A DNA stretch of 64,000 nucleotides from contig CM055095.1 of the NCBI GenBank assembly GCA_029204225.1, forward strand, positions 66,179,940 through 66,243,939, given 5' to 3'. Numbering within the stretch: the stretch's first letter is position 1; each line of letters begins with the position of its first letter. This DNA comes from Diphasiastrum complanatum. Lineage: Eukaryota > Streptophyta > Lycopodiopsida > Lycopodiales > Lycopodiaceae. The notes under the pieces are model-generated. The model saw nothing but the letters and a program-made list of their open reading frames with translations. It was not told the origin of the DNA and ran no database searches. Below, in pieces: positions 32,809 through 41,824 of this stretch. The position numbers were made by a program, and so were the translations under genes.

Positions 32809-34480
32809 CTATGTCAACGTAAAATAAAGAAGCATCGGGTAGCTCATCATCGGGTTAGATTGCAATCTCCTTTCCTTGATACGCGATACATGATCTGCCA
32901 TGTAGTGTTGTTTTCCCTTTCGAACCACTGTCCAAAAATCAAACTCTAACAATAGAAGTAGCCATCGAGTGATTCTCCCTGTGTTGCAGGTTTTGTTAAC
33001 AAGATAGAGCAAGGGTTGATGGTCCGTAAAAAAGACAAAGTGTGTGGCCATCAGGTAATAACGAAACTTCTTAACCGCACATATCATTGTCAGTGCTTCC
33101 CGCTTTGTGGTTAAATTATTCATTTCTGTATCACTAAGCTGTCGACTTTCAAATCGAATCAGAAAATCTTTTTTGTGTTCTCCTGACTGGCTTAAGACTG
33201 CTGCAACTGCATACTTCGATGCGTCCGTATGCACATAAAACTCAATGGACCAATTGGGTGGATGTAGGATTGGTGCTGAGACCAATGCATCTTTAAGTTT
33301 TTGGAAAGCCTTTAGGATTTTCTCATTCCAATGTGGATCCGTTGTGAGTTTGTAAATTGGTCATGCCAACTCCGCAAAATTTGGAATGAAAATCCTGTAA
33401 TAGTTAGCATGACCCATAAAAATGTAGACCTCGTGGATCGTTCCAGGAGGTGGTAGATCAACAATGATCCTGATTTTTTATAGGTTTGTGGCGATCCCAT
33501 GTCTATACACTATACGGCCGAGAATCAAGCCATGTGTAACCCAAAATTGACATTTTTCTGGATTCAAGGAGATCTGGAATTCGCGACATTTTTTTGTAGC
33601 ACCTTCTCTAGATTGGATAAGTGTTCAGAATCTGGTCCATGTACGCACAGATCGTCCAAGAAAATTTCCAGAATTTTTTGCAAATACTCTTTGAATGCCG
33701 CCTGTATGACTCACTGGAAGGTACTTGGGGCATTACAAAGTCCGAATGGCATCAGTGTATAGCCATAGGTTCTTCATTTCGTGGCAAATGATGTCTTATA
33801 CTGGTCTTGGGGTGCTATCTTCACTTGGTTGTAACTGCTAAAGCCGTCTAAAAAACTGTAGGCTTCGGCTCCAGCTACTCTGTCAAGGACACTTTCCGTA
33901 AAGGGCAAAGGAAGATGATCCTTTTTGGTGACTGCGTTTAGCACCTTCAGATTCACACATATTCGAATTTTTCCATTCTTCTTGGGTACTATAACTATCG
34001 GCGATACCTATTTAGTGTGTTCAATTTTGTAAATGAAATCTGCATCTAACAGCTTCTGCAATTTCTGCTTGATTAGTTCCGTGTAGTTTGGGTTGCAGCG
34101 GTAGTAATGACTCACCTTGGGGGCTGCTCCATCCACCAAGGGTATGGTGTGTTGGACTACTGTTGGTGGGATTCCCTTCAGATCACTGTAATTCTAGGCA
34201 AAACAATTCCTATACTCTACCAACAATGATCGTAGCCGCTTGAATTGTGTGGGTGTTACCTGTTCCCCCACATGCACTATCTTTTCTTCTTCACCTAGCT
34301 CGGTAAGATTCATTGGTTACGTTTGTGCAGGTCCCTTGAAGACTTGTTACGTTGGTGTTTGACTTTGATCAGGTTCTCACTGGGCTTGTGACAACATAAT
34401 TACCACATCGTCCAAGGTATAATTTTTGAAAGTCTCAGACATCTCGTGAATGGGTGCTCGTTGAAATTTCTCCTTCAGCA
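32809..34480 (-). pseudogene. Gypsy RT and RNase H remnant
   Basis: RT motifs: VPKKNGKIRICVNLKVLN, FLDGFSSYNQVKIAP, the palm site read as FLDD after EIF, and LHMAWFSA with stops. RNase H starts at ILHPPNWSIEFYVHTDASKYA and continues with KREALTMICAVKKFRYYL and FFTDHQPLLYLV, the gypsy RT_RNaseH pattern. RNase H is open for 158 codons (33285-32809); RT is broken. Confidence 0.85.
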
Positions 34481-34494
34481 TATTGATCTTAGCC

Positions 34495-35440
34495 CTACAC
34501 CTTTTGATTCTTCATCATCTGAGTAGAGGATGACGCTGCATCAGAGTTCATTCTGATTGACTTCAAGGAATCTGACACATTCTTCTTGTCTCTTTTTGTC
34601 ATATCGGTGGATTCGTCCTTGTTGTCTTTCTTCAAAACTGGTGTGACATTCGTCTCATGGTTGGGAGTATCGACATCCACTGTAGCTATAGCTTCTTCAG
34701 GTAGATCACTCCATTGGATCACCTGGTTGTAGTGTTGTTTCAACTGGTTCTTCTTGTTTGTAGGTGCCTTTGGTGGATCTATCCTTGAAACTTTGGCCAT
34801 AGTAGATTTTTGCGACGGTTGAGCTGGTACTCTCTTAGTTCCATGATGATCCGGGTCCATGTGCTGTAGGACCTGCTCATCAGTTAGTTCAATCTCTTTA
34901 TTGTAAGTCAAAGCATGTTGCCAAGGGACTAAGTCATCGTCCACTAGGTTCTCAATAGATTCCGCTCACAGCCATGCTACGCTTATCATATTCACTCCAA
35001 ATGTAATTGGCATATCCATGGTGTAACACTTGGGTGAAGATGTGCTGGGTTCAGGATCCGATTCATGTTGACATGCTTGGTAGTCAATCGTTGCTAATGC
35101 ATCCGTCCATATCACGGCGTCTGTCTCTAAATCGTAGTGACCACCCTTGGGTTGCCTTGGGCGATCGATTGTATGATCTGTCATGGATAATCCGTCATCA
35201 ACCTTGGGTGCAATAGGCTTCACCGCCCATGTGGTTGGATTGACCTTTCCAGCCTGCTCTCTATTCTCAAATGTGAGTTTTCCCATATCCCAGTTGTGTA
35301 CTCTTGCGCAATCCTCAACCATGGTCATCCCAGTAAAACACGGTATGCAGATCGAGACTCAGGTATATCCATTACCACAAAGGTGATCATAAAACGGGGG
35401 CATGGAAATGTTGCTTTTCCGGTAGCATCTCTACTGGAAC
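34495..35440 (-). pseudogene. Gypsy protease C-terminus and acidic spacer
   Basis: A segment encoding IPESRSAYRVLLG, a TGA, then PWL and VHNWDMGKLTF matches the retropepsin C-terminal block (LLGRPWL type). The stop stands where the conserved Arg (CGA) is expected. A charged, Asp/Lys-rich spacer follows in frames 35328-34966 and 34944-34495. Confidence 0.6.
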
Positions 35441-35446
35441 TGTTGC

Positions 35447-36125
35447 TCATTGTATTGCAATGAAGTTCAATGGCGCACTGACCCCAGGTCTCAATGGACA
35501 ATTCTTGAAGCAGTGTCCATAATCGCGATCCCGGTAGAAGGATGTATATTGTCCCTTATAAGGACATTCAGCAATTCTGTGTCCTTCGCCACATCTATAG
35601 CAGCCATAATTTCTTTCGTCTTGACGCTGAGTTTGAGCTGCATAGGCTGCAATATATTCATTTATGGCAGGATTCATATATGTGCATCTGGCCCATACCA
35701 TTGTTGCTGCTCAGGTTGAGGTGGAATTGGCATCTCTGGTTCTGCTGTTGTCAAGTTTACGTGTGCCACTTGTTAATTAGCTGGCCCTGGTGGTGCAGGT
35801 AAGGCCATGCGTTGTTGATTGATCAGTGCACCATACCTCGGTGTCGTGCCCCTTGATGATATGGATAAGAAGTCTGACAAGGACTCATCTTCTGTTGGAC
35901 AATCCGGGGGTTAAATGGGCAAAAGGCCGTATCATGCGATGTTGCGTTGCACAAATGGCAAAATCTATGGATCAGTCTCAGATTTTGTTTTAGGACTATG
36001 CACTCGTTCGTAGTATGATTTTGTGTGCATACTGAACACCGTACATTTTTGCAATGAAGATATTGTAGCTGGTTTTCCTCTACTAGATTTTTCGAGTGAG
36101 GAATGGATTTCTCTTGATGCAGCAA
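35447..36125 (-). pseudogene. Gypsy gag with several CCHC-type knuckles
   Basis: Three Cys/His knuckles are visible. CSVCTQNHTTNEC and CYRCGEGHRIAEC have C-x2-C-x3-H-x4-C spacing; CHLCNATSHDTAFC has the usual C-x2-C-x4-H-x4-C. A fourth Cys/His cluster (YGHCFKNC) is degenerate. They lie in two frames, 36125-35823 and 35701-35447, separated by stops. Confidence 0.65.
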
Positions 36126-36373
36126 TTTCAGAAAGCTTTTGACCTAGGCTATATATTGATATTCAGATTATATTAAAATGCAGCACTGGATCAAACAATG
36201 TTTATTTGTAAGCACTTGAGTGCTGATATAATCGTCGAGTTGTTGGATGATGGTTGGGATACAAAACAAAATCAGCAAGTTGAGTGCAGAGTATATTACT
36301 CATCCATGACATTTAGATATTACATCAAAAAGCAAATGCTCACTTTGCTGCTGTATTATAGAAGATGGATTAA

Positions 36374-36740
36374 ATGCAAAAATGTTTGAAGCCACTTGAT
36401 CAAGATTTTGGTATAAACCCTCAAGAGCAACTTCAGATAATAATGAAAAGAAATGACAACATTCTTGCAAAGGTTGAAGTCGAGGAAGATTGGTGTCTCA
36501 ATCACATTCGATCAGAACTAGACATGTTGCAATTCGATCTACCTCAGTACTATCAATTTCGATTGAATGGTGTAAAGGTACGTTATGCCATATAAATATA
36601 TTCTTTTTTTTCTATTTCTAAGTGAATTAGTTTCATAAAATATATAACTAACAGTTTCTCTTGTGCAGATAAGAGTAAGGCATGAAGAGAATATAAAATG
36701 CAAAGACATTGGAACATCCATCGAAATTGAAGATCCATAG
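36374..36740 (+). CDS. Small two-exon gene of unknown function (91 aa as read)
   Basis: Exon A (36374-36577) starts at ATG and is open for 68 codons. A GTACGT donor follows at 36578, and the intron (91 bp, AT-rich) ends with the pyrimidine-rich acceptor TTTCTCTTGTGCAG at 36668. Exon B (36669-36740) continues in phase to TAG. The protein is acidic and polar, with segments EVEEDWCLNHIRSELDMLQ and YYQFRLNGVK joined across the splice to IRVRHEENIKCKD. I recognise no domain. The frame is closed by TAA just before the ATG, so either this is the start or an upstream exon joins inside. It converges on the histone-fold/protease gene on the other strand. It could be an accessory gene of the same mobile unit or a fragment of a larger one. 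Confidence 0.4.
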
Positions 36741-36841
36741 ATTATGAACTATGGAATTTTGTATTATGTAATACAATTTTTTGTATACATCATTTAAGAA
36801 TATATATAAACCACTTTTTCTATGAGACTCATTCATTTCTA

Positions 36842-36970
36842 TGATCTTAATTTCCATGGTGCAAACACAATGTAATTGCAACTGATAATATGAGTTTTCG
36901 ATAGCAAGATTCATTGTCTCCTGCAGGAAATGCACTATCTCCATTGGGGAGACCTTCAGTCACTTGAACT
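36842..36970 (-). pseudogene. Degenerate second copy of the last protease exon
   Basis: The minus strand encodes LEFK, a stop, LKVSPMEIVHFLQET and IENSY, matching the exon at 37565-37407 (EFKCPKVSPMEIMHFRQET ... IKNSY). The copies have diverged considerably outside the VSPMEI core. It is a downstream tandem copy of the terminal exon. Confidence 0.6.
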
Positions 36971-37406
36971 CCAGTTGAACGCTTGCCCTTGTTGAAGTCT
37001 CTTATATCGCTTGTATTTTTTGTCTTCATTGCCTTGGTCTGTATTGTCCTTGTCTTGGCATATTTGGATATGTTGAGATGATGATCTGATCAAAGCTTTG
37101 TTGTGACAAATCTAAGTGAACTAATGTCGCATGTTTGGATTAGTTGTGGCAAAGGTTCGGTCAGATCATCATTCGGAACTTATCCAAAAAAAGACCATGG
37201 CAAAGGCAAGGCAGACCAAGGCTATGAAACACAAACATGTCAAAAGATAGTAAAATTTGAAGATGAATGAATCATAATCTGAATTGATAAGAGGAAAAAA
37301 AAAAAACATGTAAGAACAACCATAGAAAAACTGTAAGTATATTTCTATTATAATTTTTTGTACATGTGTCTCATCCACATAAAGTGAGACGAATATTTAA
37401 ACTGAA
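36971..37406. other. Stretch between exon copies; no gene recognised
   Basis: AT-rich, with an A-run near 37296-37307. A 69-codon minus-strand frame (37378-37169) is strongly hydrophobic but has no recognised family. Confidence 0.35.
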
Positions 37407-39392
37407 TCAATTATCTATGATCTCTAAATCCATTTCTCCATTTGGAAGTAGCTTGGGTGGAGAACACTCGGCCACTGCAATTGGATATGAATTTTTGATC
37501 ACAATCTTTATGGTCTCCTGCCTGAAGTGCATTATCTCCATTGGGGAGACCTTCGGACATTTAAACTGAAAAAAAAAAAAACATAAACACAGTTAAATGT
37601 AATTAAACAAAGATCACTTAATAGGAGTTTGTATATGAAAAAAATAAAAACACAATTAAAAGTAATCAATCAAATATTACCTCTTCCAAATTTGGAAGTC
37701 CATCTTGTAATGAAAGCCAATTAAAAAAGTGTTTGGCATTGCATATGGTATACCAGCCACAGTTGACAGAATCAATTTGTTGGGAGGACTGTAGAATCCA
37801 AATTTGAACATTATGAGATATCGGATCAATGCGTAGGATGTAAGAATAAAATCTACAATGAAAACAAGCGTGCGTCGATCCAATATCAAAAAAATTTGAT
37901 TGAATATCGGATCAGCGCGCACGTTGGAAAAATAAATCAATTGATAACTACAAGGGCGCGTCGAACCAATATTGAAAAATTTATAACTCTGCATCAACCA
38001 TTTTCAGCTTCGAGTATGCTTTTGCATTTGGTACTAGAAATAGTTCCAGTATTTTCTGTGTATGGGTCCTGACAATTTTGTGTGCGTGTGTGTAATAGAG
38101 TTCATCTTCAAACAAACTGGATTATACACACCCTCATCATTGACGTACAAGGACAACACATATAAGCTCCAATGATCACTGAAATCAGAAAACAAGAAAT
38201 TTATGTAAATCAATGTGAAATCAAAATTCATATAAAAAATTCAATAAAATAAAATCTGAAAAATAGTCACTTACTTTGTTATGTATGGCAGCACGAGAAT
38301 TGGAGTCCCCAGTCTGACGTATTGGAGCATATCATCGTGTAGACTTTTGAAATCAGGAAAATCAAATGCTACCATGAATTGAAGGGAAAACAATGCAACA
38401 TCTATAAACCATGGGGTCTAGAAGAACTCCATCCAGTACTGAATGGCCCCACCTCCTACATTGTCCCCTAGCATTTTATCCCTACTTTCTAATTAAGCAG
38501 TATCTAAAATAGAAAGGGGGAGACCAGCATTGGTCTTCGGCATCCTAAAACTGTATCGAGGACCTAAACCTTTAAGATACGTATTTAATAATTGGTCATA
38601 CTGTACATATTGAGGACTATTTACAAAGGCAAGTGCAGGGGGTGCCGAAAGTAACACAAATAAATCACATAAATAATTGTCATTCAAAATTGATTCTACC
38701 TTTACACTAATAAAATCATCTAAATCACTTCCAATAACAGGAGGAGGGGAACTAATATTTACGGGTTTAGAAGGAGGAGGAGATTTAGGAGGTGGAGATT
38801 TATTAGGAGAGGAAGATTTAGCAGGAGAAGTTAAAGATGGAGTGGAAGGAGACTTAGGAGGAGAAGAAGGAGAATTAGGAGGGGAATGAATAGAAGAAAG
38901 AATAGTATTCAGAGGAGTTGGCTTGGAAAAATCCCTCGCTTTAGATGGAGAGTCAAGATACCTCCTCTTCTTTGAAACACTCCCGCTCTGTATACAAATA
39001 ACAAGCCGGGTTGGTTGAGATTGCTTGCATTTTCTCCTCTCTGAATCTTGTTTTGGAGGAGAGGAGGGAGCAGGTCTAAAGTATTCAGCAAACTTGTCAT
39101 ATGTATCCCGAAGCCTGAACACTATGTTGAAATCCTTGGGCATGATGGTCGCCCTCTTGGCATGGACAGCTGCAACAACAGTATCCGAAAAAAACTTCAC
39201 CTAGAAATCCTCATATGCTGTGTGCAGCGCCTCAATTGCCGTTACCGTCCATCTCACATCTGTAGATAGACTTCTTGTCACCTGTCTGATGGACCTCTGT
39301 ATGTGAGATTTCGAAATCAGAAGATTATTTGTCTTCTGAAGCTTCTGAATATCCTTGAGCCATGGAGGGTGGCTGTGATCAATAGGAATTGG
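37407..39392 (-). pseudogene. Spliced gene joining a histone H3-type fold, a Pro-rich linker and a Ulp1/C48-like protease
   Basis: Four exons can be read. Exon 1 (39392-38275) stays in one frame apart from three stops (TAG 39201-39203, TAA 38493-38495, TAG 38418-38420). It begins at the alpha-N part of a histone H3 fold (KDIQKLQKTNNLLI, DVRWTVTAIEAL, FFSDT, HAKRATIMPKDF), which aligns with canonical H3 over about 87 residues without a gap. A Pro/Ser/Lys linker follows (about 38900-38755), then a YWMEFF / FMVAFDFPDF region. Introns: 38274-38179 (GTAAGT...TTTCAG), 38117-37789 and 37680-37566 (donor GTAATA, T-rich tract, CAG). Exon 2 (38178-38118) holds DHWSLYVL with the protease His; exon 3 (37788-37681) holds QQIDSVNCGWYTI with Gln and catalytic Cys (codon 37761-37759). 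Exon 4 (37565-37407) ends at TGA. All splice phases agree. The catalytic Asp is not evident, and the spacing between His and Cys is short, so an exon may be lost. The exon upstream of 39392 was not found. Confidence 0.7.
37865..37974. repeat. Cluster of three GATAT...CGCGC motifs within an intron
   Basis: About 22-bp copies of a motif with consensus GATATYGRWTCRRCGCGC lie at 37865-37887, 37902-37927 and 37951-37974, in mixed orientation. The cluster is inside the second intron of the histone-fold/protease gene. Confidence 0.65.
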
Positions 39393-39478
39393 CTATAAAT
39401 ATGTGCACCACTTGCCTTATTTTGATTTCGTAATCTTTTATTCAGAACTCTCTAGCCTTCTTGTTTTTCTTCATTCTC

Positions 39479-39670
39479 CCGATATTGAATCGACGCGCGC
39501 CAACCCTTGCTGTGCATGCTCGTATTCATTCAGGCGTGCTGAATCGATATCAGCCACTGCCGACCAGTTCTTTTTGGAAAATTTCATTCTCGGCCTTACC
39601 ATATCAAATCAGCACGCGCACTTTGCTTTATTCTTCTACCGATATTTATTTGTCACGTTGAACCGATATC
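39479..39670. repeat. Cluster of four GATAT...CGCGC motifs upstream of exon 1
   Basis: Copies at about 39479-39502, 39533-39551, 39599-39620 and 39653-39670 alternate in orientation and match the intronic cluster at 37865-37974. They lie between the histone-fold exon (minus strand) and a divergent plus-strand reading frame at 39680. Confidence 0.65.
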
Positions 39671-39679
39671 AGATTCAAT

Positions 39680-40032
39680 ATGGCTAGTTCCTCCATGGCC
39701 TCAGATGACATACTTATGGATTTTTTTAATGCCAGTCACATTCCATCTGACAAATTAAGTATTTTGCTAGTATTTTTTTTGTTTCCTTCGATATCGATAA
39801 GCTAGTTTATGAGAATCATTATAGTTTAATTTCTTATCTTGATAATCTTTCTCAGATTATTAGTCCTCCTGTCATGGATGTAGATAATTTTTGTTTCGTT
39901 AATTTTCAGGACCTTGTACATTCCCAACCATCCTCTAAGCATAAACACAATACTTTATGGTATGTGGATCTGCTCATTTCATATCGTTGCTTTCATCTCT
40001 TTGCTACATATGAATGGTATCAAGCTTTCTAG
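39680..40032 (+). pseudogene. Unknown plus-strand reading frame with one frameshift in a T8 run
   Basis: An ATG at 39680 opens a frame (MASSSMASDDILMDFFNASH and so on) that runs to a run of eight T at 39773-39780. After a one-base shift there the next frame is open to the TAG at 40030-40032 (FDIDKLVYENHYSL ... LWYVDLLISYRCFHLF). Together this gives about 117 codons without any other stop. I recognise no domain. It is head-to-head with the histone-fold/protease gene, with the motif cluster between them. It may be a further exon set of the same mobile unit, or chance. Confidence 0.3.
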
Positions 40033-41150: not shown

Positions 41151-41721
41151 CATTTTATATATATTCAATCTCCATCACTTTGTTGCTCCTCCTCAATCCT
41201 TGCAAGATCATTGACACCAAGGTTGTTGATTTCACTTTCATTCACACAAGATACTAGATGGATCCAAGCATCTCTTGTATAAACATCTAAGAATGTTTCA
41301 TGCATCTTATCATCACTACTTGGTACATGAGGAAAAGAGTGTACATTTGAATAAATGATTTCCTCTTTTGCCATAACAATTTTAGCATCCAACTTAAACA
41401 AACTACCTTGTTTAACACCCTTCGCTTACAAATATCATTCTTCATGATGGAACAAACTCCATGCTTGAAGTGAACATCTAAACCATCATCCATTAGTTGT
41501 CCAACACTAAGCAAGCTCATGGTAATTGATGGTACAAAAAGGACATTGTCTAGATCCATCCTTTTGCTAGATCCTAGACTTAATGAGATGGTACCAATAC
41601 CATCTATCTTACATTCTTGATTTTGTTGGTTTGCGATCTGGCATGTTATGCTTTTCCAACAGCTTTTGATTTGTTGAAATTCAGACATAAAGGACCTAAA
41701 ATTGATCCATTTAGTCCCCAA
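41150..41721 (-). pseudogene. Copia fragment around protease and GAG-pre-integrase
   Basis: It encodes QECKIDGIGTISLSLGSSKR, NVLFVPSI and LLSVGQLMDDGLDVHFKHGV, nearly the same as the outer nested element (ECKISGIGTIPLYVGSSKR, LLSVGQLMDNGLDVQFKHGV). After a frameshift near 41420 it continues with FKLDAKIV. A deletion then jumps to SNVHSFPHVPSSD and a further piece of the integrase-RT linker (NDLARIEEE). Remnant only. Confidence 0.7.
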
Positions 41722-41824
41722 GAGGGATGGGATGCATTGATTTCAATGATTCTCTAACACAAGCGATCATTTGTTAGAAAACAAGCAAGAACAATCAATT
41801 TCCAAGTGTTTATGACCAAAATAG

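Follow-up and report, generated by a model that had tools for sequence, protein, structure and literature searches.

Two questions are raised by a locus in the 1.74 Gb assembly of Diphasiastrum complanatum: why a histone H3 fold should run into a C48 (Ulp1-like) domain within one gene, and what kind of element bears such a gene. The stretch analyzed, 64,000 nucleotides at C4:66179940-66243939, is referred to here as the window. A sequence-only reading had proposed that one minus-strand frame joins the two parts, and that the gene is or was mobile. The frame was confirmed, as the four proposed exons gave 1446 nt when joined, in frame and with three internal stops, and the introns of 96, 329, and 115 nt all had GT-AG ends. 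The H3 fold running into the C48 domain, broken by these stops, was encoded at 39370-37407 on the minus strand, within one copy of a transposon family, C, which has three related families (A, B, and D) in this genome. The features of this copy were as follows.

36059..36571, plus strand: fragment of a conserved gene without known function, convergent with H3-C48 (tblastn with family-B ORFs, 40-49% identity, best E 1.1e-19)
36076..39952, no strand: truncated family-C transposon copy (blastn to longer C copies at C7 and C15, 90-95% with gaps)
37407..37565, minus strand: H3-C48 exon 4, the C48 tail, homologous to B exon 4
37681..37788, minus strand: H3-C48 exon 3 with Gln-x5-Cys (QQIDSVNCGWYT; tblastn to B, 59% over 34 aa, E 2.2e-9)
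38118..38178, minus strand: H3-C48 exon 2 with the catalytic-type His (DHWSLYVL); coding continues beyond 38118, where VCLKMNS is homologous to B exon 2
38275..39370, minus strand: H3-C48 exon 1, with the H3 core, a Pro/Ser/Lys linker, and the start of C48; internal stops, N-terminal tail deleted
39370..39371, no strand: breakpoint of an internal deletion of ~1.3 kb, which took away the start codon together with the H3 tail (from alignment with the C7 and C15 copies)
39680..39952, plus strand: 5' fragment of a second gene without known function, divergent from H3-C48 (MASSSMASDDIL...; aligned to a C15 stretch with the start of the gene, and reading frames)

Profile searches agreed with the proposal of a histone fold in exon 1. 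The window H3 part matched the Pfam Histone family (PF00125) with 70.2 bits and E 2.4e-19 over residues 11-95, and canonical H3 in the PDB with E 3.1e-18 over 84 residues without gaps, which is far beyond chance; a single-sequence fold prediction (pLDDT 48) gave four helices in the expected order, and was too poor for a fold search. The H3-C48 exon of an open family-B copy matched window positions 39374-39006 (tblastn, E 4.5e-19). The proposed C48 match stood in part: a spliced B copy with the same order and intron positions as the window matched PF02902 with 44.1 bits and E 2.9e-11, but the window's own degenerate C48 exons gave no Pfam match at E<=10, because the copy is too decayed. Of the two rows compared with PF02902, only that of family B matched and that of family C did not; the two-row C48 profile found SENP2 (E 2.8e-4) and Ulp1 (E 0.002) in the PDB.

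The proposed exon limits agreed with B copies elsewhere, except for the end of exon 2 at 38118, since the coding reading VCLKMNS continues there (CVKMNSARNTHK in B). The protein had also been taken to begin at 39392 with 'PIPIDHS', which had to be abandoned. In a genome search, 40 family-C places including the window were scored at 90-100% identity, from roughly 1475 candidates; 33 of the 39 places besides the window began to match at query base 19-31, 25 of them exactly at base 23, and the remaining six began later. Other C copies carried ~1.3 kb of extra sequence at window position 39370, including the N-terminus MAQTKQTARGHSGG...PPWLKD; this sequence was therefore lost from the window copy by an internal deletion, and 'PIPIDHS' lies outside the protein. 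Both terminal repeats were absent from this copy, and the candidate transposase described below was not found in the window (tblastn, E<=1e-4). With three stops, a truncation, and an internal deletion, the copy is the relic it had been taken for.

The TAG within the window H3 was common to the C copies L033 and L034, and L035 had CAG at this place, a difference of the pattern expected from methylated-cytosine decay. Many H3-like copies in the genome carried one or two in-frame TAG codons and few other stops. By eye, a motif like GCGCGTCGATTCAATATCGG was repeated at 37856-37960, downstream of exon 2, and at 39470-39660, upstream of the H3-C48 relic, and these could be regulatory repeats; fragments of Gypsy-like and Copia-like retrotransposons, likewise seen by eye, flanked the relic at 33774-35910 and 41165-41742.

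The relatives of the window gene were numerous. A search of the genome with an H3 model gave 6325 first-look candidates, a rough count, of which 150 were scored; 13 rows were canonical H3 (163.7-165 bits), from host genes that we take to carry plant-type residues, followed by rows of 95-110 bits on many contigs. All 16 H3-like places that were fetched, 15 picked for open frames and one for score rather than at random, were of the transposon type (eight of A, seven of B, and one of D). A 501-bp family-B probe gave roughly 1812 candidates, and the 40 scored places, including the probe, were 97-100% identical, a sign of a recent burst. Because PF02902 and PF00125 were searched in the genome exon by exon, the C48 count of three there does not indicate rarity. 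Family D was known from one locus (L038) as an H3 exon, with no convincing C48 match downstream of it in the 2 kb examined.

Family B showed that the two domains belong to one gene. In its exon 1, a single open exon, MD(K/R)RKQTRRDFF was followed by the H3 core, then by a basic linker rich in Pro, and finally by the first part of C48; the His exon and the Gln/Cys exon came next, with GT-AG introns. The two parts were thus not merely separate neighboring genes, in B or in C. Intact relatives, which the sequence-only reading had expected elsewhere in this genome, were found at C2:20439105-20448409 and L040, where the whole four-exon gene was open over all 470 codons. Three other B copies were damaged, with stops in L037 and L043, a deletion within exon 3 in C22, and altered splice sites in C22 and L043. 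In L041 (C558:21700-23700), a B-family H3-C48 gene had its 5' part duplicated in tandem. The His, Gln, and Cys of C48 were kept, but B had Lys and C had Asn in place of the catalytic Asp, and neither family had a complete His-Asp-Cys triad with Gln; protease activity of the C48 part is therefore doubtful. In the two full-length copies of family A, C48 was not detected (best tblastn E 9.8). The family A H3 (L001 and L003) had ~300 residues between its ARTKQTAR start and the H3 core, a stretch that was acidic and Gln-rich, with a very long poly-Pro.

The guess of a mobile gene was borne out. Families A and B were DNA transposons of 8-9 kb with terminal inverted repeats of 30-37 bp (CATTAG...CTAATG) common to dispersed copies: the two full-length A copies, of 8137 and 8737 bp, had perfect inverted ends of 36-37 bp, a B copy of 9.3 kb had an inverted repeat of 30 bp at 90%, the B right end was common to seven of eight copies, and the C ends, seen in two different copies, looked alike. 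The family end pattern had 1183 + 1163 exact matches in the genome, and a reversed control had 0 + 0. The first 100 end places formed 16 inward neighbor pairs within 12 kb (0.5-10.2 kb apart), no outward pairs, and three on the same strand; nine of the 16 inward pairs were spaced 0.9-1.2 kb and are probable non-autonomous derivatives. A-type end pairs ~1 kb apart were seen, for example, at C1 65845078-65846079. Four insertions were compared with two empty sites each, and three had no base added at the target (six of six comparisons), while the fourth had one extra G (two of two). Integration without target-site duplication (three of four) or with 1 bp (one of four) is an unusual footprint, in a sample of four. 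Helitrons have no terminal inverted repeats and carry a Rep/helicase gene. A Helitron reading of the A end, suggested by a CTRR-like hairpin, was rejected once the opposite side proved to carry this end in inverted orientation; the inverted repeats of 36-37 bp (A) and 30 bp (B) are also contrary to it, and no Rep or helicase match was found among the ORFs scanned.

Four genes recurred in these elements: a candidate transposase, two proteins without known function, and H3. With H3 as the reference orientation, the order in B and C was candidate transposase (plus), a gene without known function (minus), H3-C48 (plus), and a second such gene (minus); family A had the same four gene types, with the segment of H3 and its neighbor gene lying in the opposite orientation to the remainder. 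In its core, the candidate transposase of A was 43% identical to that of B and 41% to that of C. It belonged to no Pfam family (three weak names with one member each, best E 0.0027) and had no convincing match in the PDB (best E 0.22). The motifs KLDEAEIVKG, DLKTLK, and GMEKSH, the last outside the coverage of the C row, would supply D/E, D, and E, which suggests a DDE enzyme; its putative role as transposase is drawn from position and motifs. Neither of the two further proteins had a Pfam match above the cut-off, and this included the A and B versions of the gene at 36059..36571. A BAH-domain reading of the gene adjoining H3-C48 was an impression by eye and had no Pfam support. Between the copy at C2:20439105-20448409 and the C22 copy (L005/L007 and L006/L008), the transposase was closely similar (dS up to 0.09), but H3 (dS ~0.45) and C48 (~0.2) were far apart, a mosaic as if the H3 gene had been exchanged between lineages.

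The transposon H3 combined a conserved fold with an altered tail. Membership in the H3 fold was clear in A (PF00125, E 8.3e-30) and B (E 4e-27) as in the window, and identity between the transposon H3s and host H3 was 36-53%. A motif search, limited to sequences with a tail-like start and so liable to pass over more diverged tails, recovered 14 transposon gene starts, and each kept a version of ARTKQTAR with its first eight residues recognizable. Lys4 was kept in 13 of these 14 (Glu in D), and Lys9 was absent from all 14, with Asp, Gly, or Ala at position 9. The family C tail read AQTKQTARGHSGG against ARTKQTARKSTGG, and its likeness extended beyond position 9 (AQTKQTAR-G-HSGG vs ARTKQTAR-K-STGG); this family therefore lost Lys9 by substitution and not by loss of the tail. 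The context of Lys27 was not recognizable in the transposon tails. Of 25 positions that we take to be DNA or tetramer contacts or their neighbors, A kept 18, B 17, C 13, and D 17, judged from one row each; in the same rows, R69, R83, H113, K115-I119, K122, D123, and R129 were kept in all four families. R63 was Pro in all four rows and R72 varied, so that nucleosome wrapping may differ. The H3s of A, B, C, and D fell on one side of a tree branch (support 91/90), and a CENH3 origin was unsupported, since the tree did not place them with CENH3.

We addressed selection by comparing the B subfamilies B1 (C2, L036, L037, and L040) and B2 (C22, L041, and L043). Between them, dN/dS of H3 was 0.11-0.19, in 12 pairs and again in six pairs with corrected exons; in the latter, C48 had 0.24-0.47 and the linker 0.42-0.60. 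L036 and L041, whose C48 part was diverged or missing, were left out of the six-pair set, and their H3 values agreed. Within the subfamilies, four pairs gave 0.40-1.43 for H3 and 0.52-0.73 for C48. Thus, H3 was clearly constrained between the B subfamilies and C48 moderately so, its constraint being modestly stronger between than within subfamilies. In one pair of B copies, open pieces of the two proteins without known function had dN/dS of 0.27-0.51, and transposase pieces had 0.51-1.74; the latter are uninformative on constraint because changes were few, in a single pair, and one piece had no synonymous change.

Taken together, we proposed that the copy in the window is the dead and truncated remnant of a transposon with terminal inverted repeats whose H3 variant accessory gene, fused to C48 in B and C, may provide an anti-silencing nucleosome component, a reading to which we give an even chance. 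This role is suggested by the tail without Lys9. The H3-C48 protein would pair with host H4 and enter nucleosomes, preferably on transposon DNA. Nucleosomes without Lys9 could not receive H3K9 methylation, the mark on which non-CG DNA methylation and silencing draw in plants, and they would have no recognizable Lys27 context; A, B, and C do retain the Lys4 end of the tail. An active C48 part would strip SUMO or ubiquitin from nearby silencing factors, and an inactive one may bind them; in this way, the genes of the element would remain expressible. Deposition, specificity, and activity of the protein are presumed steps in this scheme. The sequence-only reading had supposed a histone mimic that reaches chromatin and a deSUMOylase that acts there; this supposition is weakened by the replaced catalytic Asp and strengthened, in a form not then stated, by the conserved tail without Lys9. 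In Arabidopsis, H3K9 methylation is described as directing CMT2/CMT3 non-CG methylation (excerpt of PMC10398659), and an H3 that cannot be methylated at Lys9 on element chromatin would interrupt this loop. If true, a transposon has taken histone H3, the very substrate of silencing, and altered the residue that receives the silencing mark, which would offer a direct, testable way around silencing through H3K9 and would parallel, in nature, the H3 Lys9 mutants made in the laboratory (as excerpted from PMC11364623). It would also mean that a histone variant gene is kept by selection on a selfish element.

Other roles for the H3 gene were considered. The H3 part might tether the transposition complex to chromatin, perhaps centromeric, or coat excised DNA, with no anti-silencing role. 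LLIP.APF in A, B, and D resembles the LLIPFAPF of rice CENH3, C has RWT as CENH3 does, and the C H3 was slightly nearer CENH3 (39-43%) than host H3 (36%); we nevertheless consider such a role unlikely, because the tree did not group the transposon H3s with CENH3 and those of A, B, and D were slightly nearer canonical H3. Fusion of C48 directly downstream of H3 in B and C would also suit a processing protease whose role is to release H3, or some other protein of the element, from a ubiquitin-like partner, with chromatin silencing uninvolved. This is quite improbable: the catalytic Asp is replaced, family A manages without a detectable C48, and Pfam showed no ubiquitin-like domain in the other proteins.

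Some DNA viruses encode histones, and an element of several genes with inverted repeats could be an endogenous virus of this kind. Three scans of viral contigs revealed no relative, the scanned proteins matched no virus or capsid family convincingly (Pfam and PHROGs), and the kilobase-size end pairs are as in non-autonomous transposons; this origin is disfavored and very remote indeed. The H3 gene could, alternatively, be a passenger, captured by a transposon and amplified without function, as captured H3 was by hAT elements in fungi (excerpt of PMC6710886), and the failure to find C48 in family A would fit. This is disfavored and improbable given the low H3 dN/dS between B subfamilies, the presence of H3 in all four families with their common placement in the tree, and the retention of the tail start and many fold residues.

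We compared the elements with known systems as excerpts of the cited reports describe them. In Dothideomycete fungi, hAT transposons captured histone H3 and amplified it to tens or hundreds of copies (PMC6710886); H3 on a transposon is therefore not new by itself, and there, as here, a DNA transposon with terminal repeats multiplies an H3 sequence. The fungal elements have 8-bp target duplications and a hAT transposase, and in P. fijiensis their H3 is mostly truncated and RIP-inactivated (PMC6710886), whereas here the duplication was absent at three of four sites (1 bp at the fourth), no hAT domain or other Pfam transposase match was found in the proteins scanned, and H3, which B and C join to C48, was under constraint in B. 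VANDAL elements in Arabidopsis encode VANC anti-silencing proteins (PMC5735166, PMC10398659), which indicates that plant transposons do encode anti-silencing factors (PMC5735166). They resemble the present elements as plant DNA transposons with extra genes, and the silencing-countering function proposed here is that reported for VANC; VANC proteins, however, have DUF1985 and DUF287 and bind specific motifs, whereas the accessory protein here is a histone. Neither DUF had a Pfam match in the proteins scanned, which sets the elements apart from VANDAL.

Mutator-like elements have a MULE transposase and a 9-bp target duplication. The 0-1 bp at our four sites and the lack of a Pfam transposase match among the proteins scanned do not place our elements among Mutator-like transposons with Ulp1. 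A C48/Ulp1 domain borne by a transposon is shared with MULEs and Ginger1 (PMC2836005); in Ginger1 it lies at the transposase C-terminus, whereas in our elements a gene apart from the candidate transposase has it downstream of histone H3, and no known transposase domain was found. Spy transposons, of the PHIS group, likewise have terminal repeats and no target-site duplication (here at three of four sites), and insert within AAATTT (PMC4482050); AAATTT was absent at our four sites, and no PHIS transposase match was found. Fungal DNA transposons encoding a TET/JBP dioxygenase (PMC12730594) show that an epigenetics-related accessory gene can be common to several transposon lineages, theirs being a DNA-methylation enzyme and the present one a histone. 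Thus, in these excerpts, Ulp1 on transposons, insertion without duplication, and epigenetic accessory genes are each already known. In the open-access literature searched, a single library and hence no proof of absence, we found neither a fusion of H3 with C48 nor an H3-bearing transposon from plants. More tentatively, and with somewhat less than even confidence, we suggest that the families may form a new plant transposon superfamily, possibly beyond detection by current Pfam models, with a transposase of no known family, integration without target duplication, and a Lys9-less H3, tied to C48 in some families, that would build silencing-resistant nucleosomes. Relative to the literature and the one plant genome searched, the H3-C48 fusion, the evidence of constraint, the loss of Lys9 across families, and a transposase of no known family with this footprint are new.
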